The position numbers were made by a program, and so were the translations under genes. Below, piece after piece: positions 47,812 through 63,916 of a stretch of 64,000 nt of DNA. Source of the DNA: Prauserella alba (GTDB lineage: Bacteria > Actinomycetota > Actinomycetes > Mycobacteriales > Pseudonocardiaceae); contig NZ_JAMTCH010000004.1 of assembly GCF_024171735.1 (NCBI RefSeq), positions 124,001 through 188,000 of the forward strand, read 5' to 3'. Numbering within the stretch: the first letter of the stretch is position 1; each line of letters opens with the position of its first letter. Below the pieces are notes generated by a model that saw nothing but the letters and a program-made list of their open reading frames with translations, had not been told where the DNA came from and made no database searches.

Positions 47812-48455
47812 GCGCTTCCACTCCCCGCGCACACGTCGACGAACCGGCGCGACCTGGCGGCGAGGGCGGCCAGGTCGCCGCCGGCGAGCGCGTCCCCGAG
47901 CAGCGGCCCGCCGACGCTGACGGCCGCGGCGCCGGCCGCGAGCCACGCCCCGGCCGCGTCGAGATCCACCCCTCCGGACGGAACGACCGCCAGGTCCGGG
48001 AACGGGCCGCGCAGATCCTTGAGATACCCCGGCCCCACCTGGCCGGCCGGGAACACCTTCACCGCGGGTACCCCGCGTCTCCAGGTGGACCACACCTCGG
48101 TCGGTGTGAGCCCGCCGGGGACGACGGCGACGTCGCGGGCCAGGGCCCGGTCGACGACCGTGACGTCCGATACCGGGGTGACGAGATACCGCGCTCCCCC
48201 GTCGGCGGCGGCGTCGACCTCGCCGGGGCGGGTCACGGTGCCGACGCCGATGTCGGCCGTGTCGCCGTACCGTTCGACGAGGCCCGGCAGCGCGGCGACC
48301 GTGCCGGGCGTGGTGAGCGTCAGCTCGAAGCTGCGCACCCCGGCTTCGACCATGGTGTCGATCACCGGTACGTAGTCGTCGGCGCGTTCACCGCGGATCA
48401 CGACGACGAGCCGGGTTTCGGCCGTCCACCGCGGCAGTGCCTGTCGCTGACTCAT
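47808..48455 (-). CDS. eda: 2-keto-3-deoxy-6-phosphogluconate (KDPG) aldolase
   Basis: A 215-residue class I aldolase. GAGAGGA lies eight bases before ATG 48455. Glu44 in FELTLTTP and the Schiff-base Lys133 in AVKVFPAG correspond to Glu45 and Lys133 of E. coli Eda. GVGTVTRPGEV and VPSGGVDLDAAG form the phosphate loops. It splits KDPG into pyruvate and glyceraldehyde-3-phosphate. It lies 20 bp downstream of manD and overlaps kdgK by four bases. Confidence 0.92.
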   Translation of the reverse strand: MSQRQALPRWTAETRLVVVIRGERADDYVPVIDTMVEAGVRSFELTLTTPGTVAALPGLVERYGDTADIGVGTVTRPGEVDAAADGGARYLVTPVSDVTVVDRALARDVAVVPGGLTPTEVWSTWRRGVPAVKVFPAGQVGPGYLKDLRGPFPDLAVVPSGGVDLDAAGAWLAAGAAAVSVGGPLLGDALAGGDLAALAARSRRFVDVCAGSGSA

Positions 48456-48475
48456 GACGTGTGTCCTCTCCCTGC

Positions 48476-49720
48476 TCACCAGTCGTGCACGGTGCCGTCG
48501 AGCAGCCGGTTCACCGGTAGGTAGGCGGCCGTGTACGGGTGGCGGGCGGCGACGTCCTCGTCGAGTTCCACGCCCAGTCCCGGAGTGTCGCCCGGATGCA
48601 GGAAGCCGCGGTCGAACGTGTACGAGGTGCGGAACGCCTCCAGGGTCGTCTCGCTGTGCGGCATGTACTCCTGGATACCGAAGTTGTGGATCGCCAGGTC
48701 GAGGTGCAGCGCGGCCGCCATGCCGACGGGCGAGACGTCGGTCGGGCCGTGGATGCCCGAGCGGATGCCGTAGATCGCCGCGAAGTCGAGCAGCTTCTTC
48801 ATCCCGGTGACACCACCGGTGTGGGTGGGCGCCGAGCGCACGTAGTCGATGAGCCGCTCGGTGATCAGCGTCCGGTAGTCGTGCACCGAGTTGAAGACCT
48901 CACCGGTGGCCAGCGGCGTGGTGCTGTGCTGCCGGACCAGCCGGAACGCCTCCTGGTCCTCGCCGGGGGTCGCGTCCTCCAGCCAGAACAGGTCGTACGG
49001 TTCGAGCGACTTCGCCAGCCGCGCAGCCTCGATCGGTGACATGCGGTGGTGGGCGTCGTGGAGCAGCCGCAGTTCGGGGCCGAACTCCTCCCGCACCTTC
49101 GCGAAGATCGCCGGCACGTGCCGCAGGTAGGCGGGCGTGTCCCAGTCCTCCTCCTCGGGCCGCGTCGCGGCGCCGCCGTCGGCACCGCGGTGCGCGGGTT
49201 CGTAGTCGTAGCGTTCGCCCGGCTCCGCGGTGTCGGACACGCCGTAGACCCGGTGGAGCCCGGGGACGCCCGTCTGGATGCGTACCGCCGTGTAACCCTC
49301 GTCGACGTACCCGCGAATCGCCCGCGCCAGCGCCGGATAGTCGTTGCCGGAGGCGTGGGCGTACACGCGGAGCTTGTCGCGGCTCGCGCCGCCGAGCAGC
49401 TGATACAGCGGAACGCCAGCCTTCTTGGCCTTGATGTCCCACAACGCCACGTCCACGGCGGCGATCGCTGCCATCGTCACCGGCCCGCGTCGCCAGTACG
49501 CCCCGCGGTAGAGGTACTGCCACGTGTCCTCGATGCGGTCCTCGTCCCTGCCGACGAGCGTGCTCACCAGGTGGTCCCGCAGGTACGAGGCCACGGCCAG
49601 TTCCCGCCCGTTGAGGGTCGCGTCGCCCCAGCCGACGACCCCGTCGGAGGTGACGACCTTGAGCGTGACGAAGTTGCGTCCGGGGCTGGTGACGATGACG
49701 TCGGCGGTCGCGATGCTCAC
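48476..49720 (-). CDS. manD: D-mannonate dehydratase (ManD subgroup, enolase superfamily)
   Basis: A 414-residue enolase-superfamily dehydratase. The metal ligands are Asp222, Glu248 and Glu274 ([23 protein letters not shown]). The Arg147/Tyr159 pair and His224 match the general base and acid described for ManD enzymes. The C-terminus has the RYPYTA-like [21 protein letters not shown] end of the group. It dehydrates D-mannonate (sometimes D-gluconate) to KDG. Low-efficiency members are often found beside L-gulonate or L-idonate dehydrogenases, as here. The start GTG 49720 has GGGAAG upstream. Confidence 0.9.
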
Positions 49721-49813
49721 GGCGGGTACTTCCCTACTTCCTGACTGATGTGTCGACAGTGGACGGTGCGGCGGCCGGCGGGTGCGGCCGCGGCGGCCGC
49801 ACCCGGGGCAGGC

Positions 49814-51214
49814 TCATACCGCGTTACGCGGATCCCGCAGGTCGCGGCCCGCGACCTCCGGCATGAACAGGGTGCCGATGAGCGGGCACAGCGTGAAGAA
49901 CCCGAGCAGGATCGCGACCGGGATCCACGAACCGGTCGTCGCGGCGACCCAGGCCGCTGCGACCACCGGGCCGATACCCGTGGCGATCATCGCGGCGATC
50001 TCCCTGATGACACCGGTCGCGGCGTAGCGGTGGCGCGAGCCGAAGATCTCCGGCAGCGTCAGGTTCTCGAGTGAGGCCAGCGCCATGACCGACACGTTGT
50101 GCATGACGATGTAGCCGACGAACACCTGCGGCACATCCGCACCGGCGATCAGCATCATCGTCGGAACGATGAGCACGAGCGAGATCACGCTCATCACCTG
50201 GTACATGCGGCGCCTGCCGAACCTGTCGCCGAGCGCACCGACAATGGGCACCGTGGCGAACGCGCACAACGACGAGATGATCACGACGCTGGTCCCCACC
50301 GAGGCCGACATCGCCAGCGTCACGGTGATGAACGAGACCATGTAGGTCTGCAGGATCCCCGAGTTTCCGGCCTGCCCGAACCGCAGCAGGAACGCGGGCA
50401 CCAATGCGCGCCACTTCTTCTGCTCCAGCGCTTCCAGCATGCGCGTGTCGTTCTCCCGTTCGGCCTTCGCCCTGACCTCGTCGGTCGACATGGCCACGCC
50501 GTCGGAGACGTGCGAGCTCTCCTCGAACACCGGGCTCTCCTTGAGCCGGAACCGGATCCACACGGCCACCAGCAGGATCACGGCGCTGCCGAGGAACGGG
50601 ATGCGCCAGCCCCATGCCAGCAGCTGCTCCTCGGAGAGGACGGCCACGAGGATGCCCCAGATCGCGGACGCCCCGAGCGTGCCGCAGTTCGTGCCCAGGG
50701 CCACGAGCGAGGCGATCACGCCGCGCCGCCGTCGGGGTGCGTACTCCGCGAGCATGACACCGGCACCGGAGATCTCAGCACCGGCTCCGAAGCCCTGGCC
50801 GAGGCGCAGCACCACGAGCAGGATCGGCGCGAGGATGCCGATGTCGTGGGCCGTGGGCAGCGCGCCGATGAGCGTCGTCGAACCACCCATGAGCGCGATC
50901 GTGATGAACAGGACCTTGGTGCGCCCCACCCGGTCGCCGAGGCGCCCGAAGTACCAGGCGCCGACGGGGCGTGCGACGTAGCCGACCGCGTAGGTGGCCA
51001 TCGCGGCGACGACGGCGAGCGCGGCGCTGTCGCCCACGAAGAAGAGCTGGCCGAAGACGAGGCCGGCCGCGAGCGAGTACAGCTGGAAGTCCATGAACTC
51101 GAGCGCGGTGCCCAGCCAGCCGGACATCGCGGCGCGCGTCAGGTCACTGGTACTGCGTTCGGCCCTGCCTGCTTCGGCGGTGCCCGTTTCGGGCGGCGGT
51201 GCTGAAGTGGACAT
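49814..51214 (-). CDS. MFS transporter, metabolite:H+ symporter (MHS) family
   Basis: A 466-residue 12-helix MFS protein of the MHS (ShiA/ProP/KgtP) type, with ATG 51214 after AAGGA. Signatures are SGWLGTALEFMDFQLYSLAAGLVFGQLFF at helix 1, YVARPVGAWYFGRLGDRVGRTKVL between helices 2 and 3 and GFGAGAEISGAGVMLAEYAPRRRRG. MHS members import organic acids and zwitterions with protons. Its place in the uxuB-kdgK operon makes a sugar acid such as gulonate, idonate or mannonate the likely substrate. Confidence 0.9.
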   Translation of the reverse strand: MSTSAPPPETGTAEAGRAERSTSDLTRAAMSGWLGTALEFMDFQLYSLAAGLVFGQLFFVGDSAALAVVAAMATYAVGYVARPVGAWYFGRLGDRVGRTKVLFITIALMGGSTTLIGALPTAHDIGILAPILLVVLRLGQGFGAGAEISGAGVMLAEYAPRRRRGVIASLVALGTNCGTLGASAIWGILVAVLSEEQLLAWGWRIPFLGSAVILLVAVWIRFRLKESPVFEESSHVSDGVAMSTDEVRAKAERENDTRMLEALEQKKWRALVPAFLLRFGQAGNSGILQTYMVSFITVTLAMSASVGTSVVIISSLCAFATVPIVGALGDRFGRRRMYQVMSVISLVLIVPTMMLIAGADVPQVFVGYIVMHNVSVMALASLENLTLPEIFGSRHRYAATGVIREIAAMIATGIGPVVAAAWVAATTGSWIPVAILLGFFTLCPLIGTLFMPEVAGRDLRDPRNAV

Positions 51215-51262
51215 CGTTGTTCCTTCTGCGGTGTCGGACGGGGAGGTGAGGGCGGGTAGGGA

Positions 51263-52267
51263 TCAGAACTCGATGAGGACCTTGCCGGAGGCGGCCGAGT
51301 CCTTCGCCGTCGCGAACGCCTCGACCGCATCGGCGGCGGGCAGGACGTGCGTGACGACCCCGGCGATCGCGGGGTGGGCGGCGAGCATCTCGACGGCGTC
51401 GTCGATCTCCGTCGAGAAGCGGAACGTGCCGCGCAGCTGCAGCTCCTTCGACACGAGCGGGGCGAGGTTCACGTCGATGGAGGTGTCGGCGAGCATGCCG
51501 ACCTGGACCACGACTCCCGCCCGTGCCGCGGATGCGACCGCCTGCGTCAGCGAGGCCGGCGCACCGGAGCATTCGAACACGACGGGATACGACGTCGCAG
51601 GCACGTCGTCGCGTCCGATGAGGAACGTCTCGTGGGCGCCGAGTTCGTGGGCCCGGTCGAGTGCGGACTGCTGGATGTCGCCGACCGCCACGTGGCCGAC
51701 GCCCCGCGCGGCGAGCGCCGCGACGGTGAGCAGGCCGACGGGGCCGGCACCCAGCACGAGGGCGCGATCGTTCAGGTCGCCGCCCGCGACGGTGAGCGCG
51801 TGCAACGCGACGCCGAGCGGTTCGGCGAGCGCGGCCTCCCGCAGTGACAGCCCGTCGGGCAGCCTGCGGAGCATGGGCTTCTCGACGAGCACGTATTCCG
51901 CCGCCGCACCTTGGCGGTGGGGGAAGTCCGCGGCACTGCCGAGGTAGTCGCCGCCGGGCCGGAGGTGCGGCCGATCGTCGAGGCCCGGCGCCGGGGGACC
52001 GTACCGCGCGGGGTGCACGGTCACCGGTGTGCCCGGCGCCCACTCCCCGCTCGGATCGGCTTCGACGAGGGCCGAGAACTCGTGGCCGGGCGCGAACGGT
52101 TCGCGGACGAGGTTCTCGCCGTTCTTGCCGTGGAAGTAGTAGTGCAGGTCCGAACCGCAGATGCCGACGTAGCGCACGCGCAGCAGCACCTCGCCCTCGC
52201 CGGGTTCGGGCACGGCGACGTCGTCGAGGCGCATGTCCTCGGCGCCGTGGATGAACAGGCCTTTCAC
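51263..52267 (-). CDS. L-idonate/L-gulonate 5-dehydrogenase (medium-chain dehydrogenase)
   Basis: A 334-residue medium-chain dehydrogenase. The catalytic zinc site is retained (GICGSDLHYY with Cys and His, GHEF with the Glu) along with the Rossmann segment VLGAGPVGLLTVAALAARG. The usual structural-zinc loop with four cysteines is replaced by a Pro/Gly-rich segment (HPARYGPPAPGLDDRPH), a form seen in actinobacterial L-idonate dehydrogenases. It likely oxidises L-gulonate to D-fructuronate or L-idonate to 5-ketogluconate. Operon position between uxuB (30 bp) and the MHS transporter (48 bp) favours the gulonate route. Confidence 0.85.
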   Translation of the reverse strand: MKGLFIHGAEDMRLDDVAVPEPGEGEVLLRVRYVGICGSDLHYYFHGKNGENLVREPFAPGHEFSALVEADPSGEWAPGTPVTVHPARYGPPAPGLDDRPHLRPGGDYLGSAADFPHRQGAAAEYVLVEKPMLRRLPDGLSLREAALAEPLGVALHALTVAGGDLNDRALVLGAGPVGLLTVAALAARGVGHVAVGDIQQSALDRAHELGAHETFLIGRDDVPATSYPVVFECSGAPASLTQAVASAARAGVVVQVGMLADTSIDVNLAPLVSKELQLRGTFRFSTEIDDAVEMLAAHPAIAGVVTHVLPAADAVEAFATAKDSAASGKVLIEF

Positions 52268-52297
52268 GGGTGATCAGCTCCAGGGGTCGGGGCGGGC

Positions 52298-53776
52298 TCA
52301 GCGGGCGGCGGCGGCCACATCGGCGGCCGCGGCGCGCACCCCGTCGTGGGTGATGATCGCCAGCAGCTCGGCGACGCGGGCGGTGAAGGCGTCCTGGTCG
52401 GCGAGCGCCTCGGGGAAGAAGCCGCCGGTCATGATCCGGCGTACGTGGTCGCCCGCGGCCACGGTGCCGTCGGTCGCCGCGGCGAGCCGGTCACGTGCGG
52501 GCTCGGCGATGCGCTCGGCCAGCGGGTCCGGTGTGAAACCCGCGGGCGGGGCGACGCACGCGATCCATGCTGCGGTGCACAGCGCGAGCCGGTGCGGCAT
52601 GCGGCCGCGCCGGAGGTGCACCAGCGCAGCGTCGGGAATGCGCTGGAGCAGCTTGACCGAACCGTCGGAGCCGACCTGGGTGGTGGCGTGCCCGATCAGG
52701 GGGTTGCGCCACCGGGCGTCCAATTCCGACACGTACGCGTCGGGGTCGAACCCGGTCGGCGGGGTGAACGTGGGCAGATAGTCGTCGGCGATGCCGCCGA
52801 GCACCGCTTCGCGGACGAAGTCCAAGCTCCACGCGGCGTCGATCGTGGGAGCGCCGGCGAGGATGCCGAGGTAGGCGATGAGCGAGTGCGACCCGTTCAG
52901 CAGCCGCAACTTCACCATCTCGTACGCCTCGATCTCGGTCGAGAACGTCACGCCCGCTTCTTCCCATGCCGGGCGGCCGCCGGCGAAGTCGTCCTCGAGG
53001 ACCCACATGCTGAAATCCTCGGCGGGGACGGGACAACGGTCGGTCACACCGAGCAGTTCGGCCACCTGCCGCGTGTGCTCGTCGGTCGTCTTCGGCACGA
53101 TGCGGTCGACCATCCCGTTCGGGAACGACACCGACGAGGACACAAAGGACAGTACGTCGTCGCTCGCGCCCGCGGCGTGGAGGAACTGCTCGACCACGGC
53201 CCGCGTCACGTCGCCGTTGGCTTGAAGGTTGTCACACGACAGCACGGCCAGCGGCGCCCCCGTGTCGGCGCGCAGCTCGAGCCCCCTGGCGATCATGCCC
53301 ATCGCGGTACGCGGTGTAGCACCGGCGACGAGGTCCGCAGCGACCTCGGGATGGTCGAGTGCCAGCCGGCCGGTCGCCGGATCACGCGTGTACCCGACCT
53401 CGGACACGGTCAGCGAGACGATGCGATGGGCCGGGTCGGCGATCGCGGCCACGACGGCAGCGGGGTCGTGAGCCGCCACGCCGGTGTCGCGGTGGACGTC
53501 GACGACACCTGCCCTGGCGCCGTGCTCGGTGAGCTGCAGGATCGAGTACACGTTGTCCTGGGCGCGCATCGGCGCGACGACCCGGTCCGACGAGTGCGCG
53601 AAACCGCGGATGCCCCAGTCACCACCGGCAGCGGCCATCGCCTGCGCCGTGTGGACGGCACCGTGCGCGCGGTGGAAGTTGCCGAGACCGAGGTGCACGA
53701 TGCCGGTCCGGTCGGGTGCGGATGCCCCGATGAGCGTTCCCGCGGGCACGCTGCGGCGCCCGAGTCCCTGTGTCAT
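52298..53776 (-). CDS. uxuB: Mannitol dehydrogenase family protein: D-fructuronate reductase (D-mannonate oxidoreductase)
   Basis: A 492-residue NAD(P)-dependent polyol/uronate dehydrogenase of the long-chain MDH family. Motifs are GNFHRAHGAVHTAQAM near the N-terminus (binding GxG-like region IVHLGLGNFHRAH) and the family signature K-x4-N-x2-H in VKLRLLNGSH. It should reduce D-fructuronate to D-mannonate. It is first in the operon, starts at ATG 53776 with AAGGACGTC before it, and is divergent from the IclR regulator across a 147-bp region with tandem 21-bp motifs. Confidence 0.9.
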   Translation of the reverse strand: MTQGLGRRSVPAGTLIGASAPDRTGIVHLGLGNFHRAHGAVHTAQAMAAAGGDWGIRGFAHSSDRVVAPMRAQDNVYSILQLTEHGARAGVVDVHRDTGVAAHDPAAVVAAIADPAHRIVSLTVSEVGYTRDPATGRLALDHPEVAADLVAGATPRTAMGMIARGLELRADTGAPLAVLSCDNLQANGDVTRAVVEQFLHAAGASDDVLSFVSSSVSFPNGMVDRIVPKTTDEHTRQVAELLGVTDRCPVPAEDFSMWVLEDDFAGGRPAWEEAGVTFSTEIEAYEMVKLRLLNGSHSLIAYLGILAGAPTIDAAWSLDFVREAVLGGIADDYLPTFTPPTGFDPDAYVSELDARWRNPLIGHATTQVGSDGSVKLLQRIPDAALVHLRRGRMPHRLALCTAAWIACVAPPAGFTPDPLAERIAEPARDRLAAATDGTVAAGDHVRRIMTGGFFPEALADQDAFTARVAELLAIITHDGVRAAAADVAAAAR

Positions 53777-54715: not shown

Positions 54716-54783
54716 GGCCTTCGGGAACGTCGCACCGGGAACACGCGCGGCATCGCGCGACCGAACAACGAGCTCCCCAATGA

Positions 54784-54852
54784 TGTTGATTTTCCAACAT
54801 CTCCGCAGTCGCTTCCCGAATCACCGACGCCGCACGTGTACTATTTCGAACA
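54784..54852 (+). promoter_or_regulatory. Two copies of a 16-bp operator upstream of deoR (second)
   Basis: TGTTGATTTTCCAACA (54784-54799) and TGTACTATTTCGAACA (54837-54852) match the consensus TGTTSWYTTTCSAACA. Two more copies occur upstream of the kinase gene (55705-55741). The second copy ends 20 bp before the start codon, a good place for autorepression. Confidence 0.7.
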
Positions 54853-54872: not shown

Positions 54873-55661
54873 GTGGACGGGGCACCTGCCGGACTGCTGC
54901 GCTACGACGACGCCCCCGCGCGCCGCGGTGTGATCCTCGAACAACTCCACGCCGCGGGGTTCCTCGCGATCAGCGACCTCAGCAAACAGCTCGGCGTATC
55001 GGACATGACCGTGCGGCGCGACGTGCGCCGGCTCGAACGGGACGGCAAGGTGCGGGTCGTGCACGGCGGGGTCAGCCTCCCCCCGGCCGACCAGCCACCG
55101 GCTTTCGAGGGCCGGGTCCGTGCCAGCCACGAGGCCAAGCAGCGAATCGGCTCGCACGCGGCCGGACTGCTGACCGGGTCGGACACGATCGCCGTCGACG
55201 CCGGTACGACGCCGTACGAACTCGCGCTCGCACTGCCCGACGACTTCGCCGGTTCGGTCGTCTCCCATTCGGTTCCCGTACTGCAGCGCATGCTGAGCCT
55301 GCCTGCCGCCCGCACGGTCGCGCTCGGCGGTGACCTCAACCACGACAGCCAGGCCTTCGTGGGGCCCATCACCGTGGACACCGCGGCCCAGTTGCGGGTG
55401 AAAACGTTCTTCCTGGGCGCTGCGGCCATCGACGACCGCGGCGTGTACGTCGCGACCGACCGGGAACGCCCGACCAAGCTCGCGCTGATGGACATCGCCG
55501 ACCGCGTGGTTCTCCTCGCCGATCACAGCAAGTTCGACGCCTCCGCGGCGGTCCTGCTGTGTCCGCTGAGCCGGCTCGACGCCGTGGTCAGCGACCGCAG
55601 GCCAGCGCTCGCCGAACTCTTCGACGACGCCGGCGTCGATCTCGACCTCGCCACGGACTGA
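54873..55661 (+). CDS. DeoR/GlpR-family regulator (YihW-like position)
   Basis: A 262-residue DeoR-family protein starting at GTG 54873, seven bases after GGAGG. The HTH is LHAAGFLAISDLSKQLGVSDMTVRRDVRRLERDGKV, and the effector domain has DAGTTPYELALALP, VVSHSVPVLQRML, ALGGDLNHDSQAFVG and LADHSKFDASA. It heads the kinase-aldolase-dehydrogenase-transporter unit and shares a 16-bp operator with the kinase promoter. In E. coli the regulator of the sulfoquinovose genes (YihW/CsqR) is of the same family. Confidence 0.88.
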   Translation: MDGAPAGLLRYDDAPARRGVILEQLHAAGFLAISDLSKQLGVSDMTVRRDVRRLERDGKVRVVHGGVSLPPADQPPAFEGRVRASHEAKQRIGSHAAGLLTGSDTIAVDAGTTPYELALALPDDFAGSVVSHSVPVLQRMLSLPAARTVALGGDLNHDSQAFVGPITVDTAAQLRVKTFFLGAAAIDDRGVYVATDRERPTKLALMDIADRVVLLADHSKFDASAAVLLCPLSRLDAVVSDRRPALAELFDDAGVDLDLATD

Positions 55662-55704
55662 CCCGGCCCGCTCCGACTTCCGGGGCATCAGTGCATCCGC
55701 ATCA

Positions 55705-55741
55705 TGTTCTATTTCCGACAGTGGATGTTGACTTATGAACA
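55705..55741 (+). promoter_or_regulatory. Two copies of the 16-bp operator before the kinase gene
   Basis: TGTTCTATTTCCGACA (55705-55720) and TGTTGACTTATGAACA (55726-55741) match the consensus seen upstream of the DeoR gene. The second overlaps TTGACT, a possible -35, so binding would block transcription of the operon. Confidence 0.7.
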
Positions 55742-55783
55742 TCTCCGGTCGACACTATGGGCGCCATCCGGCGAGGAGGAATC

Positions 55784-56683
55784 GTGGACAATGTTGTCTT
55801 CGTTGGTGCGGCGACCGAGGACGCCATCGCCGTCACCGCGCATCACCCATCCCCTGACGAACGCGTCGTCGTCGACGACTTGGTCCGCAGTGGCGGCGGC
55901 CCTGCCGCGACCGCGGCAGTCACGGCCGCACGACTCGGCATCCCGGCCCGGATCATCGCGGCGGTGGGAGACGACCGGCCGGGACGCGACGTCATCGACG
56001 GCCTCGACGCGGCCAACGTCGACACGCGCCACGTGCAGGTGACCCCGGACGCGCGAACCCAGTCGGTCGTCGTCATCTGCAGCCGCAGCGACGCCACCCG
56101 TGCGATCTGCACCACCGTCGCCCCGCCCCTCGACCTCGACGCGGCCGCCGCCGAAGCCGTGCGATCCGCCGGCTGGGTCCACGTCGACCACCACGGGTGG
56201 CCACCGGTCGCACGCCTGCTCGCGGGCATGTCGCCCGCCGATCGTCCGAAGCTGTCCGTCGATGTGGGCTACGCAGTCGAAGACCTCCGTTGCCGCCCCG
56301 ACGAGGTCACCCTGTACGCACCCACGGCCGACCGGCTGCGGGCCGAGCACGCATCGACCGACCTCCACGCAGCTCTCGTCGCCTCCACGGCGAACACCGT
56401 CGTGGCCACCGACGGTGCGAACGGCTCGATCGGCCGCGACGAACGCGGTGAGCTGTACCGCGTGCCGGGCCTGCCCATCGAGCCGGTCAGCACCCTCGGC
56501 GCGGGCGATGTCTTCCACGGCGCGCTGCTCGCTGCCGTCGTCCGCGAACGTCCGCTGCACGAAGCGATGACATACGCGGGTATCGCCGCGGCGCTCTCGT
56601 GCCGGGCCGTCGACGGCCGTTCCGGCATCCCCACCCGCCACGAGATCGAGACCCGCATGAGCGAACTGAAGGAGTACGCGTGA
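55784..56683 (+). CDS. PfkB-family sugar kinase, YihV-like (sulfofructose kinase-type)
   Basis: A 299-residue ribokinase-fold protein; GTG 55784 follows GAGGAGGA. The N-terminal signature is RSGGGPAATAAVTAARLG, the catalytic signature is STLGAGDVFHGALLAAVV, and the end has VDGRSGIPTR. As I remember E. coli YihV, it has the same GGGPAATAAVAAARLG, TTGAGDVFHGAL and GGRAGIP elements, unlike most PfkB kinases. It would phosphorylate a ketose at C1, sulfofructose in YihV. Its stop overlaps the aldolase start by four bases (GTGA). Confidence 0.82.
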   Translation: MDNVVFVGAATEDAIAVTAHHPSPDERVVVDDLVRSGGGPAATAAVTAARLGIPARIIAAVGDDRPGRDVIDGLDAANVDTRHVQVTPDARTQSVVVICSRSDATRAICTTVAPPLDLDAAAAEAVRSAGWVHVDHHGWPPVARLLAGMSPADRPKLSVDVGYAVEDLRCRPDEVTLYAPTADRLRAEHASTDLHAALVASTANTVVATDGANGSIGRDERGELYRVPGLPIEPVSTLGAGDVFHGALLAAVVRERPLHEAMTYAGIAAALSCRAVDGRSGIPTRHEIETRMSELKEYA

Positions 56684-57603
56684 CGAACCCTGCGCCTTAC
56701 GACCTGACCGACCTGGCACGACCGTCGGGCGGCTTCGCGATGCTGGCGGTGGACCAGCGTGAGGCACTGCGACTCATGCTGGCGGGGGCGGCAGGCCCCG
56801 CCCCGGACGGCACGACGCCCGACGACGTGCTCCGGCGCGTCGACGACGCGACGCTCACGGAGTTCAAGCTCGCCGCCACCCGTGCGCTCACCCCGCACGC
56901 CTCGGGTGTGTTGCTGGACAAACAGTTCGTCTTCGACGCCGCCGTCGACACGGGAGCCGTTGCCCCTGACTGTGGGCTCATCGCCGCCGCCGATCGGTTC
57001 GTGCCCGGCGACGGCGAGGCTGTCACCGACTCGGTACTGGACGAGACCGTCGACCCGCACACGGTGCGTGCCCAAGGTGCCGTGGCGATGAAGCTTCTCG
57101 TCGTGTGGCGGCCCGACGAGGACACCCGCCGCCGAGTCGCCATGGTCGAGCGCTTCGTCGCCCGGTGCCGAGCAGCGGGCCTCGTCAGCATCATCGAACC
57201 GGTGTCGAAAGCTCCTCGCCGCGGAGGCGACTGGGACTGGAACGCCGGCGTCCACGCGGCAGCCGACGAGCTCGGCGGGCTCGGCGCCGATCTGTACAAG
57301 TCCGAGGTTCCGTTGCACGGCAGGGCCGACACCGACGTCCTGCACCGCGAATGCACCCGGCTCGGCGCACGGATCGCGTCACCGTGGGTGGTGCTGTCGT
57401 CCGGTGTGGACGCCGACGAGTTTCCCCGTGCCGTCGAGATCGCCTGCGCGGCAGGGGCGTCCGGGTTCCTCGCGGGCCGTGCCGTGTGGCGCACATGTGT
57501 CGGAGCCGAGAACCTCGCCGACGCGCTGGAGGCGGACGCCGTCCCGCGGTTGCGGCGGCTGGCGGAGCTGGTCGATCGCGCGGTCACCGCTCCCACCCAC
57601 TGA
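56680..57603 (+). CDS. Class I aldolase, YihT-like (sulfofructosephosphate aldolase-type)
   Basis: A 307-residue TIM-barrel aldolase from GTG 56680. It resembles E. coli YihT in order and spacing of motifs: SGGFAMLAVDQREA at 16-29, KLLVVWRPDED, GLVSIIEPV, DLYKSEVPL (predicted Schiff-base Lys207), PWVVLSSGVDADEFPRAV and AGASGFLAGRAVW at the end. YihT splits 6-deoxy-6-sulfofructose-1-phosphate to DHAP and sulfolactaldehyde. The related LacD family cuts tagatose-1,6-bisphosphate, so the leaving aldehyde could differ. The preceding YihV-like kinase supports the sulfosugar reading. Confidence 0.85.
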   Translation: MTNPAPYDLTDLARPSGGFAMLAVDQREALRLMLAGAAGPAPDGTTPDDVLRRVDDATLTEFKLAATRALTPHASGVLLDKQFVFDAAVDTGAVAPDCGLIAAADRFVPGDGEAVTDSVLDETVDPHTVRAQGAVAMKLLVVWRPDEDTRRRVAMVERFVARCRAAGLVSIIEPVSKAPRRGGDWDWNAGVHAAADELGGLGADLYKSEVPLHGRADTDVLHRECTRLGARIASPWVVLSSGVDADEFPRAVEIACAAGASGFLAGRAVWRTCVGAENLADALEADAVPRLRRLAELVDRAVTAPTH

Positions 57604-57611
57604 AGGAGGAC

Positions 57612-58622
57612 ATGGTGCTGGTCAAGGAGATCCGCTTCCCCGACGTCGGTGCGGTCGAAGTCGGCGAGGTGAACGACCATCGTCGCCCCGGTCCGGGAGA
57701 AGCACTGGTGGCACCCTCGTACGTGGGCATCTGCGGCTCGGATCTGCACGTCTACGCCGGACGACATCCGTTCGTCCGGCCTCCCGTGGTCACCGGGCAC
57801 GAAAGCGTCGGCGACGTGGTCGCGGTCGGCGACGGCGTCGCCGGGATCGCCCGCGGCGACCGCGTGCTGATCAATCCGCTGGTCCATTGCGGACAGTGCG
57901 TGGCGTGCGCGGCCGGTTCCCTCAACACGTGCGAATCCGCGCGGGTTCTCGGTTTCAAACTACCGGGCACGGCGCGCACCCGCACCGTCCAGCACGCGTC
58001 GCGACTGCATCGCGTCCCCCACGAGGTGGCCACGGATGTCGCCTGCCTGGCCGAGCCACTGGCCACCGCCGTCCACGCGGTGGGCCGCCCGCACGGATCG
58101 TCGGCCATGGAGAACGTGTTGGTGATCGGCGGCGGCTGTATCGGGCTGGCCGTGCTGCTGGCCGCTCGGGCCCACGGTGCCGGCAGCGTCACCCTCGTCG
58201 AACCCGTCGCGGCGAAGCGCGCGCTGGCTTCCCGGCTGGGAGCCGATCGGGTGGTGGAGCCCGAGCACCTTGACGAGCTCAGCGGATTCACGACGGCGTT
58301 CGACTGCGTGGCCGGGGCGGACACGCTGCGCGCGGCCGTGGACGGCACGCGCGGTGGCGGACACGTCGTGGTGGTCGGCGTGCCGTCCGGAACCGAGCTG
58401 ACCCTGCCGTTGCCGCGAATGCAGCGTTTCGAGGTCGATCTCGTCGGCAGCGGTATGTACCTGCCCACCGACATCGACCGCGCGCTGTCGCTCATCGCCG
58501 ACGGCACCATCGACCCCGGTCCCCTCATCTCCCGACGCTTCCCACTCGCCGACGCCCCGGCCGCCTACCCGGCGGCAGCCGACCCCGACACCGTCAAGGT
58601 TCTCGTCCAGCTCTTCGACTGA
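57612..58622 (+). CDS. Zinc-dependent alcohol/threonine-type dehydrogenase
   Basis: A 336-residue medium-chain dehydrogenase whose ATG 57612 follows AAGGAGGA directly. It has a full catalytic zinc site (GICGSDLHVYAG and GHES) and structural zinc cysteines CGQCVACAAGSLNTC (C-x2-C-x2-C-x7-C). The Rossmann glycine motif is VLVIGGGCIGLAVLLAARAHG. In the operon it could convert the aldehyde from the aldolase (for example sulfolactaldehyde to dihydroxypropanesulfonate) or oxidise a polyol to the ketose that feeds the kinase. In E. coli the reducing step is done by YihU, a different family. Confidence 0.85.
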   Translation: MVLVKEIRFPDVGAVEVGEVNDHRRPGPGEALVAPSYVGICGSDLHVYAGRHPFVRPPVVTGHESVGDVVAVGDGVAGIARGDRVLINPLVHCGQCVACAAGSLNTCESARVLGFKLPGTARTRTVQHASRLHRVPHEVATDVACLAEPLATAVHAVGRPHGSSAMENVLVIGGGCIGLAVLLAARAHGAGSVTLVEPVAAKRALASRLGADRVVEPEHLDELSGFTTAFDCVAGADTLRAAVDGTRGGGHVVVVGVPSGTELTLPLPRMQRFEVDLVGSGMYLPTDIDRALSLIADGTIDPGPLISRRFPLADAPAAYPAAADPDTVKVLVQLFD

Positions 58623-58632
58623 AGGAGCACAC

Positions 58633-59994
58633 ATGACAACCGTCTCGCAGCGTGGCGAGCGGACCCGCATGCGCACCGTCGCCATCGCCAGTTTCATCGG
58701 CGCTCTCATGGAGTGGTACGACTTCTTCCTGTTCGGTACTGCCTCGGCACTGGTGTTCGGCCCGGTGTTCTTCCCCGATGCGGACCCCACCGTCGGCACC
58801 CTGGCCGCATTCGCGACGTTCGGCGTCGGCTTCGTCGCTCGTCCGCTCGGCGGTGTCGTGTTCGGACACTTCGGCGATCGCGTAGGGCGCAAGTCGATGC
58901 TCGTGATCACTCTGATGATCATGGGCGTCGGTACGTTCGCGATCGGGTGTCTGCCCGACTACGACCAGATCGGCATCGCCGCTCCGATCCTGCTCGTCGT
59001 TTTCCGCCTTGCGCAGGGACTCGGACTCGGTGGCGAGTACGCCGGCGCGGCCCTGATGACCATCGAACACGCACCCGAGGCCCGGCGCGGGTTCTGGGGC
59101 AGTCTCCCGCAAGCCGCCGCGTCCGGTGGCATCCTGTTGTCCACCGGCGCTTTCGCCCTGGTCAGCCAACTGGACCGGGCGGAGTTGCTGTCCTGGGGCT
59201 GGCGGATGCCGTTTCTCGTCAGCCTCGTACTGCTCGGTGTCGGCCTGGTCATCAGGCTGAAGGTGAGCGAAAGTCCCGAGTTCGAGCGGACCGCGGCGGA
59301 ACGTCGGAGGAACAACAGTGGCAAGCAGCCGATCCCGCTGTTGCAGGTGTTCCGCAAGCATCCCCGTAACCTGTTGCTCGCCTTCGGCGCACGCCTCGGC
59401 GAGACGGTCACCTCGAACGCGATCAACGCGTTCGGTATCTACTACGTCTCGACCCAGGTCGGCGTCGCCGAGTCGACGGCGCTGAACGGCATGCTGCTGG
59501 CCTCGGCGATCGGACTGGTCGCCGTACCGATCATCGGAGCTCTGTCCGACCGGATCGGCCGACGAAGGATCTATCTCGCGGGGTCGGTGTTCGGCACCGT
59601 GTTCGCCGTCCCGTTCTTCCTGATGCTCGACTCGGGGTCGATACCGCTCATCACGCTGGCGTTCGTGATCGCCTACGTGTTCGTGCCGACGATGATGTTC
59701 GCCGTGCAATCGACGTTCTTCTCGGAGCTGTTCGGGGCGGACGTACGCTACACCGGCCTGTCGTTGGCCTACCAGGTCTCCGCGATCGCGGGTGGGTACG
59801 TACCCGCCGTCGCCACCTCGCTGCTGGTCGCCGGCGGTGGTGAGCCGTGGTTGGTGGCTGCGGTGTTCGCCGGGGTGTGCCTGGTGACGACGGCATGTGT
59901 GCTGTCGGTGGCACATCGCCACGCAGGAGCCGACGCCTCCTCCGACGCCGAACCCGCCGGTCGGCCGGAGGCGACCGGCGGGCGCGTCTCGTAG
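58633..59994 (+). CDS. MFS transporter, MHS family
   Basis: A 453-residue 12-helix protein, ATG 58633, 10 bp after the dehydrogenase stop. Typical MHS segments are ASFIGALMEWYDFFLFGTASALVF, RPLGGVVFGHFGDRVGRKSML and GLGLGGEYAGAALMTIEHAPEARRG. It should move a small acid or zwitterion with protons. As the last gene of the kinase-aldolase unit it may import the sugar or export the C3 end product. It is clearly distinct in sequence from the MHS protein at 49814-51214. Confidence 0.9.
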   Translation: MTTVSQRGERTRMRTVAIASFIGALMEWYDFFLFGTASALVFGPVFFPDADPTVGTLAAFATFGVGFVARPLGGVVFGHFGDRVGRKSMLVITLMIMGVGTFAIGCLPDYDQIGIAAPILLVVFRLAQGLGLGGEYAGAALMTIEHAPEARRGFWGSLPQAAASGGILLSTGAFALVSQLDRAELLSWGWRMPFLVSLVLLGVGLVIRLKVSESPEFERTAAERRRNNSGKQPIPLLQVFRKHPRNLLLAFGARLGETVTSNAINAFGIYYVSTQVGVAESTALNGMLLASAIGLVAVPIIGALSDRIGRRRIYLAGSVFGTVFAVPFFLMLDSGSIPLITLAFVIAYVFVPTMMFAVQSTFFSELFGADVRYTGLSLAYQVSAIAGGYVPAVATSLLVAGGGEPWLVAAVFAGVCLVTTACVLSVAHRHAGADASSDAEPAGRPEATGGRVS

Positions 59995-60194: not shown

Positions 60195-60959
60195 TCAGCC
60201 GATGGCCGCACCGCCACACACCTTGAGCACTTGGCCCGTCACGTATCCCGCGCCCGGACCCGCCAGGTAGCCCACCGCCGCGGCCACCTCCTCCGGCGTG
60301 CCCATGCGGTTGATCACCTGGTCGTCAAGGGCGTAGGCGACGTCCGCGGTCAGCGCCGTCGCGATCGGGCCGGGCGCCACCGAGTTGCAGGTGATCCCGT
60401 CGGCGCCGAGCTCCTTGGCGAGCCACTTCGTCAACGCGATCACGCCACCCTTGGAGGCCGCGTACGCGGGACCGGAACGACCGCCGCCTGCACCTCCCGA
60501 CCGCGGTCCGCCCATGATCCCGGAGATCGAGCTGATGTTGATGATCCGCCCCGACCCCTGTGCCTTCATGTGGGGTTCGGCGGCGCGGCAGTAGAGGAAC
60601 ATCCCGCGCAGATTGGTGTCGAGATCGCGGTACCACTCGTCGTCGGTGAGCGTGCCCAGCCCGTTCCTGCTGGCCGTCCCGGCGTTGTTGACGAGCACGT
60701 CGAGCGAGCCGAGCCGTTCGGCCGCCGCGTCGACGGAGGCGCGCACCGCCTCCTCGTCACGCACGTCGACCTGCCGGTACAGCACGTGCTGATCCGGGAA
60801 GTCGGCGGCGAGCGCGGTGACGTCGTCGCACGCGTCGGCCAGGTCGACGACCACGACGTGCGCACCCTGCCTCGCCAGGCCGTGCGCGATGGCCAGCCCG
60901 ATGCCGCGTGCGCCGCCGGTGACGAGCGCGACCCGACCGGTGAGGTCGAACGGATTCAC
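60195..60959 (-). CDS. Short-chain dehydrogenase/reductase (SDR)
   Basis: A 254-residue classical SDR, GTG 60959. The cofactor motif is TGGARGIGLAIA (TGxxxGxG), NNAG follows at about 90 residues, the active site has Ser in ISSISGIMGG and Tyr-x3-Lys in AYAASKGG, and the end is TGQVLKVCGG. An unusual Gly/Ser/Arg-rich insertion (GGPRSGGAGGGRSG) lies just before the catalytic Tyr. It follows the TRAP large permease by 14 bp, so it probably acts on the imported sugar acid or polyol, for example as a gluconate-type 5-dehydrogenase. Confidence 0.85.
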   Translation of the reverse strand: MNPFDLTGRVALVTGGARGIGLAIAHGLARQGAHVVVVDLADACDDVTALAADFPDQHVLYRQVDVRDEEAVRASVDAAAERLGSLDVLVNNAGTASRNGLGTLTDDEWYRDLDTNLRGMFLYCRAAEPHMKAQGSGRIINISSISGIMGGPRSGGAGGGRSGPAYAASKGGVIALTKWLAKELGADGITCNSVAPGPIATALTADVAYALDDQVINRMGTPEEVAAAVGYLAGPGAGYVTGQVLKVCGGAAIG

Positions 60960-60973
60960 TCCCGTGTTCCCTT

Positions 60974-62359
60974 CTAGAAGCCCAGCAGATCCGGAAGCCA
61001 GTTGGACAGTTCCGGCACGTATGCCACGAGCAGCAGCACGACCAGGCCTGCGGCGAAGAACGGGCGGATGCCCTTGACCACTTCGGCCAGCGGCACCTTC
61101 GCGATGCCGGCCGCGACGAACAGGTTGACGCCGACCGGCGGTGTGACCAGCCCGAGCGCCAGGTTCACGACCATCATCACGCCGATGGTCGTCACGTCGA
61201 CACCCGCTTCGAGCAGCACCGGCGCGATGATCGGGACGAACAGGTACAGCGCGGACACCGCGTCGATGAACGCGCCGACGATCAACAGCACCACGATGGC
61301 CAGCAGCACGATCAGCACGGTGTTGCCGGTCAGCCCCAGCAGGGCGTCGGAGAGGTTCTCCGCGATCTGGTTGACGGTCACCACGTAGGCGAACACCGAC
61401 GCGGCACCCACGATCAACATCACCACGGCCGACTGCGCCGACGCGGTCACGAGGATGCGGTACAGCTGCCGCGGGCTGATCTCCCGGTAGACCAACAGGC
61501 CGACCAGCAGCGCGTAGACCGCCGCGACGACCGCCGACTCGGTCGGCGTGACGATGCCGCCGTAGATGCCACCGAGGATGATCAACGGGACCAGGAGGCC
61601 GGGGACGGCCTTCCCGAAGGACGCGCCGAGCCCGCGTGATGCGGCCGCCTCGGCACCCTCGCCGGCGGGCGGCGAGCCCGCGTCACCGCCATCGCCGCGG
61701 TCGCCACCGTGACCGCCGCCCGAGCCCGCGCCCGCCCCCGCGGCGACCTTGACCGGTTGGGTCCGCGGCAGGAACAGGCTGGCCACCACGAGCGCGGCCG
61801 CCAGCAGAATGCCCGGCACGATGCCCGCCACGAACAGCCGCACGATCGACACCCCCGCGTAGTCGCTGACGACCACCGCGAAGATGATGAACGCGACGCT
61901 GGGAGGCACGATGATGCCCATCGAACCCGCGCTGGCGAGCAGCGACGTCGCATGCCGGGCGGCGTAGCCCTGGCGGATCAACGCCGGAATGAGGATCGAT
62001 CCGATGGCCGCCACCGTCGCGGGACCCGAGCCCGAGATGGCCGAGAAGAAGAAGGCGGCGATGATGACGACGATCGCCAGCCCGTGTTTGCGCCTGCCCA
62101 CGCATGCGTGTGCGAAATCCACGAGCCTGCGCGAGATGCCGGCATACTCCATGATCACGCCGGCGAGGATGAAGAACGGGATGGCTAGCAACGTCTCCGA
62201 TGCCACCGACGCGGTGAAGACGTTCGGCACGATCGACAGTTCGCCGAAGCCGCCCATCGCCACCAGCGAGACACAGGCCGCCATCCCGAGCGCGAACGCC
62301 ACGGGAACACCCAGCAGCAGCAACACGAAGAAGCTGCCGAACAGCACGACACCGATCAC
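60974..62359 (-). CDS. dctM: TRAP transporter large permease (DctM)
   Basis: A 461-residue protein with about 12 membrane helices, GTG 62359. DctM features include GVPVAFALGMAACVSL, IPFFILAGVIMEYAGISRRLVDFA, PATVAAIGSILIPALIRQGY and SMGIIVPPSVAFIIFAVV. A Gly-rich acidic loop (about 215-240, GAGAGSGGGHGGDRGDGGDAG) in the middle is an unusual insertion. It overlaps dctQ by four bases (GTGA). Confidence 0.9.
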   Translation of the reverse strand: MIGVVLFGSFFVLLLLGVPVAFALGMAACVSLVAMGGFGELSIVPNVFTASVASETLLAIPFFILAGVIMEYAGISRRLVDFAHACVGRRKHGLAIVVIIAAFFFSAISGSGPATVAAIGSILIPALIRQGYAARHATSLLASAGSMGIIVPPSVAFIIFAVVVSDYAGVSIVRLFVAGIVPGILLAAALVVASLFLPRTQPVKVAAGAGAGSGGGHGGDRGDGGDAGSPPAGEGAEAAASRGLGASFGKAVPGLLVPLIILGGIYGGIVTPTESAVVAAVYALLVGLLVYREISPRQLYRILVTASAQSAVVMLIVGAASVFAYVVTVNQIAENLSDALLGLTGNTVLIVLLAIVVLLIVGAFIDAVSALYLFVPIIAPVLLEAGVDVTTIGVMMVVNLALGLVTPPVGVNLFVAAGIAKVPLAEVVKGIRPFFAAGLVVLLLVAYVPELSNWLPDLLGF

Positions 62360-62868
62360 CGGTCGGCCTCCTCACTCGGCTGCGAATCCATTGTGGACCT
62401 GCGGAAGCCGGCCCGGCTCGCCTGCACGGTCCGGTACACGCCGAAGAGCGCACCCACCGGAAGGGCGGCGGTGAACAACCATTGCGGAATCCGGATCGAC
62501 GGGGTCGCCCTGCCGCTGTCGAGCTGCGCGATCGCCATGTCGACACCGAAGTACAGCAGCACGACCAGGAACGTCAGGATCGCGACCGTGATCAGCACCG
62601 TCATGACCTGCCGCGCGATCCCGGTGGCCTTCTCGTGCAGTGCGCTGAACCCGAGATGAGCACCTTCCCGCAGTCCGATCACCGCGCCCATCATCACCAT
62701 CCACACCGCGAGGTTCACGGTCAGTTCCGAGGTGAAGGCCAGTGATGCGTTGAGGAAGTACCGGCTGATGACGTTGACGAACGCGACCACTGCCACCACC
62801 GCGAACGGGACGGCGGCCAGCACGTTCTCCGCGGTCGTGAGCACGCGTTCCGAACTCGACCTCTGCAT
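62356..62868 (-). CDS. dctQ: TRAP transporter small permease (DctQ)
   Basis: A 170-residue, four-helix DctQ protein starting at ATG 62868. It has the NVISRYFLNASLAFTSELTVNLAVWMVMMGAVIGLREGAHLGF segment, the WxxE-like E-L region and helix 2 conserved in the family, and ends in a short charged tail. It lies three bases after dctP and links DctP delivery to DctM transport. Confidence 0.88.
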   Translation of the reverse strand: MQRSSSERVLTTAENVLAAVPFAVVAVVAFVNVISRYFLNASLAFTSELTVNLAVWMVMMGAVIGLREGAHLGFSALHEKATGIARQVMTVLITVAILTFLVVLLYFGVDMAIAQLDSGRATPSIRIPQWLFTAALPVGALFGVYRTVQASRAGFRRSTMDSQPSEEADR

Positions 62869-62871
62869 GGC

Positions 62872-63879
62872 TCAGCGCTCCGGGCTCACGGCGCGGACCA
62901 TCTCGGGGCCCCACACCGGCTCGTAGGATTCGTACAGCGGCCGCACCGCCGCACGGAAACGGGCGACCTGCGCATCGGTCAGCACGGTCGTCTTCATCAG
63001 CTTCGACTGCTCGTCGATCTGCTGCTGTTCCAGCCCCCGGTTGGTCTCGATCTGGAACGCGTTCGCATCGGCCGCGGCCGCCTCCACGATCTTCCGGTCC
63101 GCCGGGCTCAGCGAGCGGAACAGGTCCTGGTTCATCCCGAGGATCAGCGGGTCGTAGACGTAGTTCCACACGGTCAGATGCCGCTGCACCTCGGCGAGCC
63201 CTGCCGACGAGATGACGTCCATCGGATTCTCCTGGCCCTCGATCGTGCCCTGCTGGAGCGAGGTGAACACCTCGGAGAAGTTCATCGTCGTCGGGTTGGC
63301 ACCGAGCCTGCGGAAGATGTCGGTGAACATGCCGATACCGGGGATGCGCACCTTGATGCCGGCCAGGTCGGCGGGCTCGTTCACCGGGCGGACGTTGTTC
63401 GTCAGCTGCCGGAAGCCGCTCTCGCCGAACCCGAGCATCTTCACACCGATCTCGGAGGAGAGCTTCTCGTAGGCGGCGGTCGCACCGCCCTGCAGTGCGC
63501 GGTCGGCCTCGTCGTAGTCGCGGTACAGGAACGGGGCGTTGATCGCGCCGAACCGCGGGTCGATGCCCGCGTAGATGATCGTGGAGTTGTAGGAGAAGTC
63601 CTTGTCGCCGTTCATCAGCTGTTCGACCCCTGCTGCGGGGTCGCCCGCCGAGAGCTGCTCGCCGGTGAAGATCCGGAGTTTCATCCGGCCACCGGACTCG
63701 CGGGACAGGGTCTCGGCGAACCGCTGGGCCGCTTGGTACCAGGTGGAGGACTCTCCGACCGTGACGGTCATGTCCCAGGTGTAGACCGGTTTGTCCGGCG
63801 TGGCCGTCACCGAGCCGCATGCGCCGAGCACCAGGCAGGCCAGCAGTGCGACGGCGCCCCGAAGGCGCTTCGACATCAT
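62872..63879 (-). CDS. dctP: TRAP transporter substrate-binding lipoprotein (DctP)
   Basis: A 335-residue lipoprotein, ATG 63879 with GGAGAA six bases before it. The signal ends in the lipobox LGAC (MSKRLRGAVALLACLVLGAC). DctP motifs include YQAAQRFAETLSRESGGRMKLRIFTGEQL, a long helix start, the AGIKVRIPGIGMFTDIFRRLGANPTTMNFSEVFTSLQQGTIEGQENP core with the conserved Arg for the carboxylate of the ligand, and VWNYVYDPLI. TRAP binding proteins of this subgroup often bind uronates or other sugar acids. The gene is preceded by a good promoter and an IclR-type palindrome. Confidence 0.92.
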   Translation of the reverse strand: MMSKRLRGAVALLACLVLGACGSVTATPDKPVYTWDMTVTVGESSTWYQAAQRFAETLSRESGGRMKLRIFTGEQLSAGDPAAGVEQLMNGDKDFSYNSTIIYAGIDPRFGAINAPFLYRDYDEADRALQGGATAAYEKLSSEIGVKMLGFGESGFRQLTNNVRPVNEPADLAGIKVRIPGIGMFTDIFRRLGANPTTMNFSEVFTSLQQGTIEGQENPMDVISSAGLAEVQRHLTVWNYVYDPLILGMNQDLFRSLSPADRKIVEAAAADANAFQIETNRGLEQQQIDEQSKLMKTTVLTDAQVARFRAAVRPLYESYEPVWGPEMVRAVSPER

Positions 63880-63916
63880 TGTCCGTTCTCCTCGTCCGCC
63901 CCGGAAGGGCACACCG

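Follow-up and report, generated by a model that had tools for sequence, protein, structure and literature searches.

How does a bacterium that encodes a kinase and an aldolase of the sulfofructose type obtain the ketose on which these enzymes would act, when no known isomerase is found to supply it? This question is raised by a five-gene operon (54873-59994) of the soil actinomycete Prauserella alba, located in a 64-kb stretch of DNA, hereafter the window, which corresponds to G000:C2:124001-188000 of a 5.6-Mb source genome (G000) in 11 contigs. Sulfoquinovose is among the most abundant organosulfur compounds in nature (PMC12890257), and the reviewed routes start with isomerizing or oxidizing the sugar itself or with cleavage of the C-S bond. 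From comparisons of sequences and gene neighborhoods, we proposed, as the explanation that is on balance probable, that the operon is a variant of the sulfo-Embden-Meyerhof-Parnas (sulfo-EMP) pathway, in which a dehydrogenase and not an isomerase would supply the sulfoketose, perhaps from a sulfohexitol. The operon consists of the following genes:

54873..55661, plus strand: DeoR-family regulator, CsqR-like; GTG start; Pfam DeoRC
55757..56683, plus strand: PfkB-family kinase of the sulfofructose kinase (YihV) type; Pfam PfkB; GAGD motif present
56680..57603, plus strand: class I aldolase of the sulfofructose-1-phosphate aldolase (YihT) clade; GTG start; Pfam DeoC/LacD
57612..58622, plus strand: zinc-dependent medium-chain dehydrogenase; Pfam ADH_N and ADH_zinc_N
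58633..59994, plus strand: MHS-family proton symporter, proposed importer; Pfam Sugar_tr/MFS

A preliminary description of this DNA had reported five genes in one direction with a GTGA overlap, and this layout was borne out: all five genes are co-directional, the kinase stop and the aldolase start share the four bases, and gaps of only 8 and 10 bases precede the dehydrogenase and the transporter, respectively. The Pfam assignments agreed with the families that had been named, and the motifs quoted for the kinase and the aldolase were present in the translations. No NCBIfam model matched any of the five proteins at or above its cut-off; the best model for the transporter, metabolite/H+ symporter 2A0106, scored 419.8 bits, under its cut-off of 443.45. 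In Prauserella salsuginis (genome G511, locus L010), the gene order was kept with 87-94% protein identity across the five genes, and both flanks of the operon were likewise conserved; these two genomes were the only ones among seven from Prauserella to encode the aldolase.

Phylogeny of the Aldolase and the Kinase

The aldolase had been likened to YihT of Escherichia coli, and the phylogenetic analysis placed it in that type, nested with YihT and the aldolases of sulfoquinovose clusters and away from LacD. At a threshold of 1e-20, this protein had matches in 12 of the 396 genomes searched in the phylum and in 16 of the 249 in the family, and at 1e-45 in 41 of the 394 in the class; G000 was part of each set. 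The gene neighborhoods were taken from 13 + 20 places, four named contigs, the E. coli yih region, and seven plasmid stretches (2 for LacD). Among solved structures, the best matches were sulfofructosephosphate aldolases (276 bits), followed by a DUF2090 protein (62 bits) and then by tagatose aldolases (at most 41 bits). Sequence identity was 91% to the closest named relative, from P. salsuginis, 70% to the aldolase of cluster L042, the nearest outside Prauserella, and 47% to YihT. In two trees, the aldolases of the window, L010, and L042 formed one group (support 99/96 and 99/95), which sat within a 23-row clade that holds YihT on a long branch (support 100/99); sixteen aldolases of other gene context lay on the opposite side of the tree, and LacD fell far outside. 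The later tree left out two LacD rows, the long-branch rows L053 and L054, L091, whose aldolase frame is split, and L132, whose end is aberrant. Of 68 columns that do not vary among 14 sulfoquinovose-cluster aldolases, the window aldolase retained 67, and it had the sulfo letter at 11 of the 12 columns separating these 14 from 15 aldolases of other context; L093 and L094, in which a SqvD-type isomerase is present, were counted as isomerase loci in the column and pair comparisons. Lysine 207 aligns with YihT position 193, which we take to be the catalytic lysine, and is proposed here as the Schiff-base lysine of the aldolase.

The likeness of the kinase to YihV, which had also been claimed, was supported by a tree that groups it with YihV-type kinases, although the deep forks were less well supported: the window kinase joined that of L042, its nearest relative outside Prauserella, at 99/100, but the fork with YihV reached only 82/53. 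Its best solved-structure match agreed with this placement, as sulfofructose kinase scored 92.6 bits versus 77 for the best ribokinase. The kinase is 56% identical to the L042 kinase (BLAST) and 31% to YihV, and it keeps 57 of the 59 positions at which 12 sulfoquinovose-cluster kinases all agree. Together with the aldolase columns, the trees support the earlier suggestion that the operon would break down a ketose or polyol by kinase and aldolase chemistry.

The tagatose-6-phosphate pathway (LacC/LacD) has an aldolase of the same Pfam family, but it was ruled out by the low identity of the window aldolase to LacD (27%) and their separation in the tree; LacC gave only a 47-residue local match to the window kinase. 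The sulfo-EMP2 pathway is defined by a PF00365 kinase and a class II PF01116 aldolase in the cluster (PMC9594981), and was ruled out because the window kinase belongs to PF00294 and the aldolase to PF01791.

A sister clade of YihT-like aldolases (L095-L101, L046-L052) carries LSQGV and YKAQ or similar motifs and, by reading, has FGGY- or DUF1537-like kinases, glycoside hydrolases, and racemase-like genes nearby. These aldolases could be misannotated as sulfofructose-phosphate aldolases.

Regulator and Operators

The DeoR protein shares 65% identity with its counterpart in the sulfoquinovose cluster L042 and 29% with E. coli CsqR; the residue aligned with CsqR R150 is Asn in the window protein, and this position varies among relatives. 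Each of the two promoters of the operon has an operator:

54782..54801, no strand: operator 1, palindrome GATGTT-N8-AACATC, upstream of the DeoR gene
55724..55743, no strand: operator 2, GATGTT-N8-AACATC, with the TGTT core starting 31 bases ahead of the kinase start

The core ATGTT-N8-AACAT was matched twice in the window and in none of 100 shuffles. Across the genome, the exact palindrome was confined to these two sites, with a single one-mismatch site elsewhere (C2:362179), and a control scan with the backward pattern gave 0 matches. The shorter form TGTT-N8-AACA, often TGTTGACTTTCCAACA or close to it, was located at the promoter in 10 of 13 actinobacterial isomerase loci (L011, L013, L042, L043, L044, L082, L083, L084, L086, and L088), lying 59 bases ahead of the first gene of the cluster in L013 (from coordinates), and was not found at the promoters of L045 (contig edge), L093, and L094. 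Both promoters in L010 carry this operator type as well, and Markov-resampled versions of the loci matched it 0 to 0.4 times each. Among five isomerase-less loci with a PfkA-type kinase, four lacked the operator near the gene starts tested and L090 had a variant site. The window operon has both the CsqR-type regulator and the operator of actinobacterial clusters, and because the operator type recurs in most of the actinobacterial sulfoquinovose clusters examined, we proposed that regulator and operator were probably inherited from such a cluster. The shared operator also offers a handle for finding more members of the regulon.

The Missing Isomerase

Cluster L042 is a full sulfoquinovose cluster, which holds relatives of the regulator, kinase, and aldolase together with an isomerase, a GH31 enzyme, an ATP-binding cassette (ABC) importer, an aldehyde dehydrogenase, and TauE; the sole NCBIfam match of its isomerase was sulfoquinovose isomerase SftI (269 bits, cut-off 700). 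The preliminary description had found no sulfoquinovosidase, isomerase, or YihU in the operon, and this held across the whole window, in which tblastn with YihS, SqvD, GH31, SlaB, SuyB, TauE, and YihU gave nothing at 1e-5. In neither G000 nor G511 did we find a PF07221 protein or a relative of the L042 isomerase, in searches whose positives were G773 (both searches), G886 (PF07221), and G171 (its own protein). The sole GH31 protein of G000 is encoded on another contig and shares about 29% identity with cluster sulfoquinovosidases and 24% with YihQ; no sulfoquinovosidase was found in the cluster by searches aimed at the GH31 type and not at GH188, as is likewise the case for a recognized sulfoquinovosidase in some known sulfo-EMP clusters (PMC8873060). 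A complete sulfoquinovose pathway was not assigned, because both known isomerase types, YihS and SqvD, were sought and not found.

It might be argued that the operon nevertheless serves the ordinary sulfoquinovose pathway, with an unrecognized isomerase encoded elsewhere and the zinc dehydrogenase playing a secondary part. The closest relative of the operon is indeed a full sulfoquinovose cluster, and Arthrobacter strains without a recognized sulfoquinovosidase gene grew on methyl sulfoquinovoside (PMC8873060), which indicates that unrecognized enzymes do occur in such pathways. However, neither known isomerase type was found in the two Prauserella genomes, the only GH31 protein is divergent and encoded on another contig, and gene calls next to the operon showed no ABC importer of the cluster type, which makes this explanation unlikely.

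Alternation of Isomerase and Zinc-Dependent Dehydrogenase

If an isomerase does not supply the ketose, the dehydrogenase is the candidate to do so. Its best solved neighbors were a putative zinc-binding dehydrogenase, an NADP(H)-dependent ketose reductase, and threonine, sorbitol, and L-arabinitol dehydrogenases. Its sequence has GICGSD, GHE, a four-cysteine motif, and an acidic residue; the first two are zinc-ligand motifs, and the acidic residue suggests a preference for NAD. We proposed an enzyme of the polyol dehydrogenase/ketose reductase/threonine dehydrogenase kind that would make the sulfoketose. We surveyed the neighborhoods of 43 loci by tblastn (E 1e-12), taking about 9 kb to each side or less where the contig ended, excluding L012, which shares a contig with L084, and including L053, L054, L091, and L132. 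The 25 loci with a sulfo-clade aldolase comprised 14 with only an isomerase, 9 with only a zinc dehydrogenase (the window, L010, L085, L087, L089, L090, L091, L130, and L131, in the last of which it is 7 kb away), and 2 with neither (L129 and L132); the two enzymes never co-occurred. A zinc dehydrogenase was present in 2 of the 18 loci with other aldolases (L048 and L053). Of the 295 other genomes sampled from the class, none gave a homologue of the window dehydrogenase at E <= 1e-70, with scoring limited to the best 7 candidates in the genomes listed.

MHS carriers import organic anions, which would favor the direct import of a sulfoketose (sulfofructose or sulfotagatose) by the MHS symporter, with the zinc dehydrogenase interconverting epimers or another side product. 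In addition, a PF00294/PF01791 pair clustered with a zinc dehydrogenase in Paracoccus wurundjeri was discussed as possible sulfotagatose enzymes (PMC12421959). However, the dehydrogenase gene directly follows those of the kinase and aldolase, and such a gene appears again in isomerase-less clusters, which suggests that it catalyzes a core step, and we consider direct import rather improbable.

Five of the isomerase-less loci (L085, L087, L089, L090, and L091, in genomes coded f93) combine a YihT-clade aldolase and a zinc dehydrogenase with a PfkA-type (PF00365) kinase and an ABC importer, with no isomerase found; some of them add an enolase-superfamily protein and a SlaB-like enzyme. A separate isomerase-type cluster exists besides the PfkA-type one in G773 and G659.

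A Distant C3-Sulfonate Locus

A C3-sulfonate locus (L120) was found on the same contig 26-37 kb past the window (G000:C2:214140-224706; window-equivalent 90140-100706). It has GntR-like, ComC-like, SlcC-like, SuyA-like, and SuyB-like genes, a YeiH-type exporter, and LysR-like, SlaB-like, MFS carrier, and YihU-like genes, which are present in G511 at 90-98% identity. We assume the names SuyA, SuyB, and SlcC from sulfosugar-cluster relatives, as no NCBIfam model named these proteins. The best NCBIfam model for the ComC-like protein was L-sulfolactate dehydrogenase (168 bits, cut-off 500), the SuyB-like protein is 80% identical to SuyB of cluster L082, and the SlaB-like dehydrogenase is 65% identical to the L042 enzyme. 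This gene content fits a dihydroxypropanesulfonate/sulfolactate pathway of the kind reported from Actinobacteria (PMC10599462). A joint regulon of the operon and L120 through the operator was rejected, since exact sites occur in the operon only. In a survey of Actinobacteria, dihydroxypropanesulfonate/sulfolactate clusters and sulfoglycolytic clusters were separate, with one exception (PMC10599462).

The preliminary description had left two roles for the dehydrogenase, namely feeding the ketose or reducing the C3 aldehyde. Because L120 would handle sulfolactaldehyde and no known isomerase was found, the first role is favored and the second less so. Under the second, the zinc dehydrogenase would act on sulfolactaldehyde, yielding dihydroxypropanesulfonate or sulfolactate, and so replace YihU or SlaB. 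Sulfo-EMP clusters normally have such an enzyme, and the window has no SlaB- or YihU-like gene; however, a SlaB homologue and a YihU-like protein, whose genes lack the operator of the operon, are encoded 33-37 kb past the window, and a cluster of Cereibacter sphaeroides has a zinc dehydrogenase and a SlaB-like enzyme together. Moreover, in P. wurundjeri, where a zinc dehydrogenase is clustered with a kinase and an aldolase of these families, the recombinant dehydrogenase failed to oxidize sulfolactaldehyde (PMC12421959). A role on the C3 aldehyde is therefore very improbable in our judgment.

Comparison with Known Sulfosugar Clusters

Sulfo-EMP clusters are known in Actinobacteria (PMC8873060), as are hybrids that combine the two enzyme sets (PMC12890257, PMC9594981). 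The window operon resembles the E. coli yih and Arthrobacter sulfo-EMP clusters in its DeoR/CsqR-type regulator, PfkB-type sulfofructose kinase, and class I PF01791 aldolase of the same clade, but differs from them in having a zinc dehydrogenase and an MHS symporter and no YihS- or SqvD-type isomerase, sulfoquinovosidase, or sulfolactaldehyde reductase/dehydrogenase. Hybrid actinobacterial clusters with a SqvD-type isomerase (L042, L043, L044, L082, and others) share the regulator, kinase, aldolase, and operator type; unlike the window, they hold a FucI-like isomerase and an ABC importer in the cluster, and most also GH31 and SlaB. A plasmid cluster of C. sphaeroides (L130) likewise has a YihT-type aldolase, a YihV-type kinase, and a zinc dehydrogenase, with no isomerase found, but it adds an ABC importer and SlaB-like and tartrate-dehydrogenase-like genes, and its dehydrogenase is only about 28% identical to that of the window. 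Cluster 2 of the sulfofucose degrader P. wurundjeri resembles the present system in combining a PF00294 kinase, a PF01791 aldolase, and a zinc dehydrogenase with SuyAB/SlcC/ComC and in the lack of an isomerase in the cluster, but that organism has a PF07221 isomerase homologue at another place in its genome (PMC12421959). During growth of P. wurundjeri on sulfofucose, the dehydrogenase was induced and the kinase and aldolase were not, and the route demonstrated was Entner-Doudoroff-like (PMC12421959).

The survey also yielded further arrangements of these genes. L130 lies on plasmid pRSKD131A of C. sphaeroides KD131 (43018-63866), and aldolase matches of similar identity occur on other C. sphaeroides plasmids. 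On plasmid pYA7-1a of Arthrobacter sp. YA7-1 (80959-101804), L129 contains YihV/YihT-type genes, SlaB-like, TauE and SDR genes, and lactonase, galactonate-dehydratase, and DHDPS-family genes, and looks as if EMP-like and Entner-Doudoroff-like sulfosugar routes were combined. Fifteen f99 genomes of 1.3-1.9 Mb encode YihT-like aldolases; they include those of L093 and L094, in which the G+C content is under 50% and a SqvD-type isomerase, YihV/YihT-type genes, and SuyB lie in one cluster.

Genes around the Operon

Upstream of the operon, a sugar-acid operon on the minus strand (46825-53776) contains, by reading of the translations, KDG-kinase-like, KDPG-aldolase-like, and mannonate-dehydratase-like genes, a second MHS symporter, an L-idonate-dehydrogenase-like gene, and a mannitol/fructuronate-type dehydrogenase. 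Farther upstream (43642-45378), a secreted-looking GH32-type fructan hydrolase, recognized from its translation, is encoded beside a sugar-porter-like gene and a DeoR regulator. Just past the operon, also on the minus strand (60195-63912), are an SDR dehydrogenase and a three-subunit TRAP transporter, which are conserved in P. salsuginis.

Proposed Pathway

In the sulfo-EMP variant that we proposed, the MHS symporter would import a sulfonated hexitol, such as 6-deoxy-6-sulfohexitol, which the zinc dehydrogenase, as the most likely source of the ketose, would oxidize to a 6-sulfoketohexose (sulfofructose or an epimer). The YihV-type kinase would phosphorylate this ketose at C1, and the YihT-type aldolase would split the product by retro-aldol cleavage into dihydroxyacetone phosphate and sulfolactaldehyde, while DeoR would repress the operon from the two palindromic operators until the sulfosugar appears. 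The enzymes of L120 might then convert sulfolactaldehyde to sulfolactate and further to pyruvate and sulfite. The predicted reactions of the kinase and the aldolase are drawn from the clades to which these enzymes belong; around them we infer the substrate, what the dehydrogenase, the regulator, and the transporter would do, and a connection of the operon with L120.

Several observations weigh against this proposal. Threonine dehydrogenases scored equal to polyol dehydrogenases against the window dehydrogenase, which is only 28-31% identical to the dehydrogenases of the other isomerase-less loci, so that these loci may not share the function of this enzyme. When the exclusion of isomerase and dehydrogenase was counted on independent pairs, four pairs were supported, 2-3 were informative, and the sign test was not significant; because of the low identity, the four switches of the isomerase/dehydrogenase label on the tree, and the few informative pairs, the exclusion is better described as a pattern than as proof. 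As to L120, it resembles a dihydroxypropanesulfonate-type locus, it lacks the operator, and it has GntR- and LysR-like regulators of its own. SuyB is encoded in three of the seven Prauserella genomes (G000, G511, and G490), of which G490 is without the aldolase, indicating that the C3 locus can stand alone and need not serve the operon. In the open-licence papers searched, six sulfohexitol names gave no match. Finally, at YihV position 110, 11 of 12 actinobacterial sulfoquinovose kinases have Arg and the window kinase has Thr.

The last observation comes from a sulfonate-site comparison that was based on columns conserved across sulfoquinovose clusters. YihV N109 and R138, which we presume to be sulfonate contacts, are absent in the window kinase, the sulfoquinovose kinases of Actinobacteria do not retain them consistently either, and the L042 kinase has Leu at position 110 though it is located in a sulfoquinovose cluster. 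The Thr in place of Arg and the absence of N109 and R138 suggest that the window kinase may accept a somewhat different ketose. An alternative is that the substrate is not sulfonated at all, but a polyol or 6-deoxyketose for which sulfo-EMP enzymes were recruited. The missing arginine that is common to relatives, the occurrence of the YihT-like sister clade in loci where sulfo probes mostly found nothing, and the sugar-acid and fructan genes adjoining the operon would be consistent with such a recruitment, whereas the aldolase columns, the regulator, and the operator all match sulfoquinovose clusters, and the genome has a C3-sulfonate locus. Weighing both sides, we find a non-sulfonated substrate distinctly improbable.

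Implications for Sulfosugar Degradation

Among the sulfosugar papers that a search of open-licence literature returned, none named Prauserella, and by the terms counted, a sulfoketose paired with a polyol dehydrogenase was not found among the open-licence literature matches listed. Tentatively, and as a possibility that we hold open to doubt, sulfoglycolysis initiated by a dehydrogenase may extend beyond this genus: bacteria would degrade sulfonated hexitols via sulfoketoses through the sulfo-EMP kinase and aldolase, and the systems of Prauserella, C. sphaeroides, and the PfkA-type loci L085-L091 would be separate inventions. With the operon and L120 in one genome, a single cell could carry both carbon and sulfur through to pyruvate and sulfite. 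Taken together, a cluster that keeps the splitting enzymes but swaps the entry enzyme points to a perhaps overlooked pool of substrate, which may be a sulfonated sugar alcohol not yet described.

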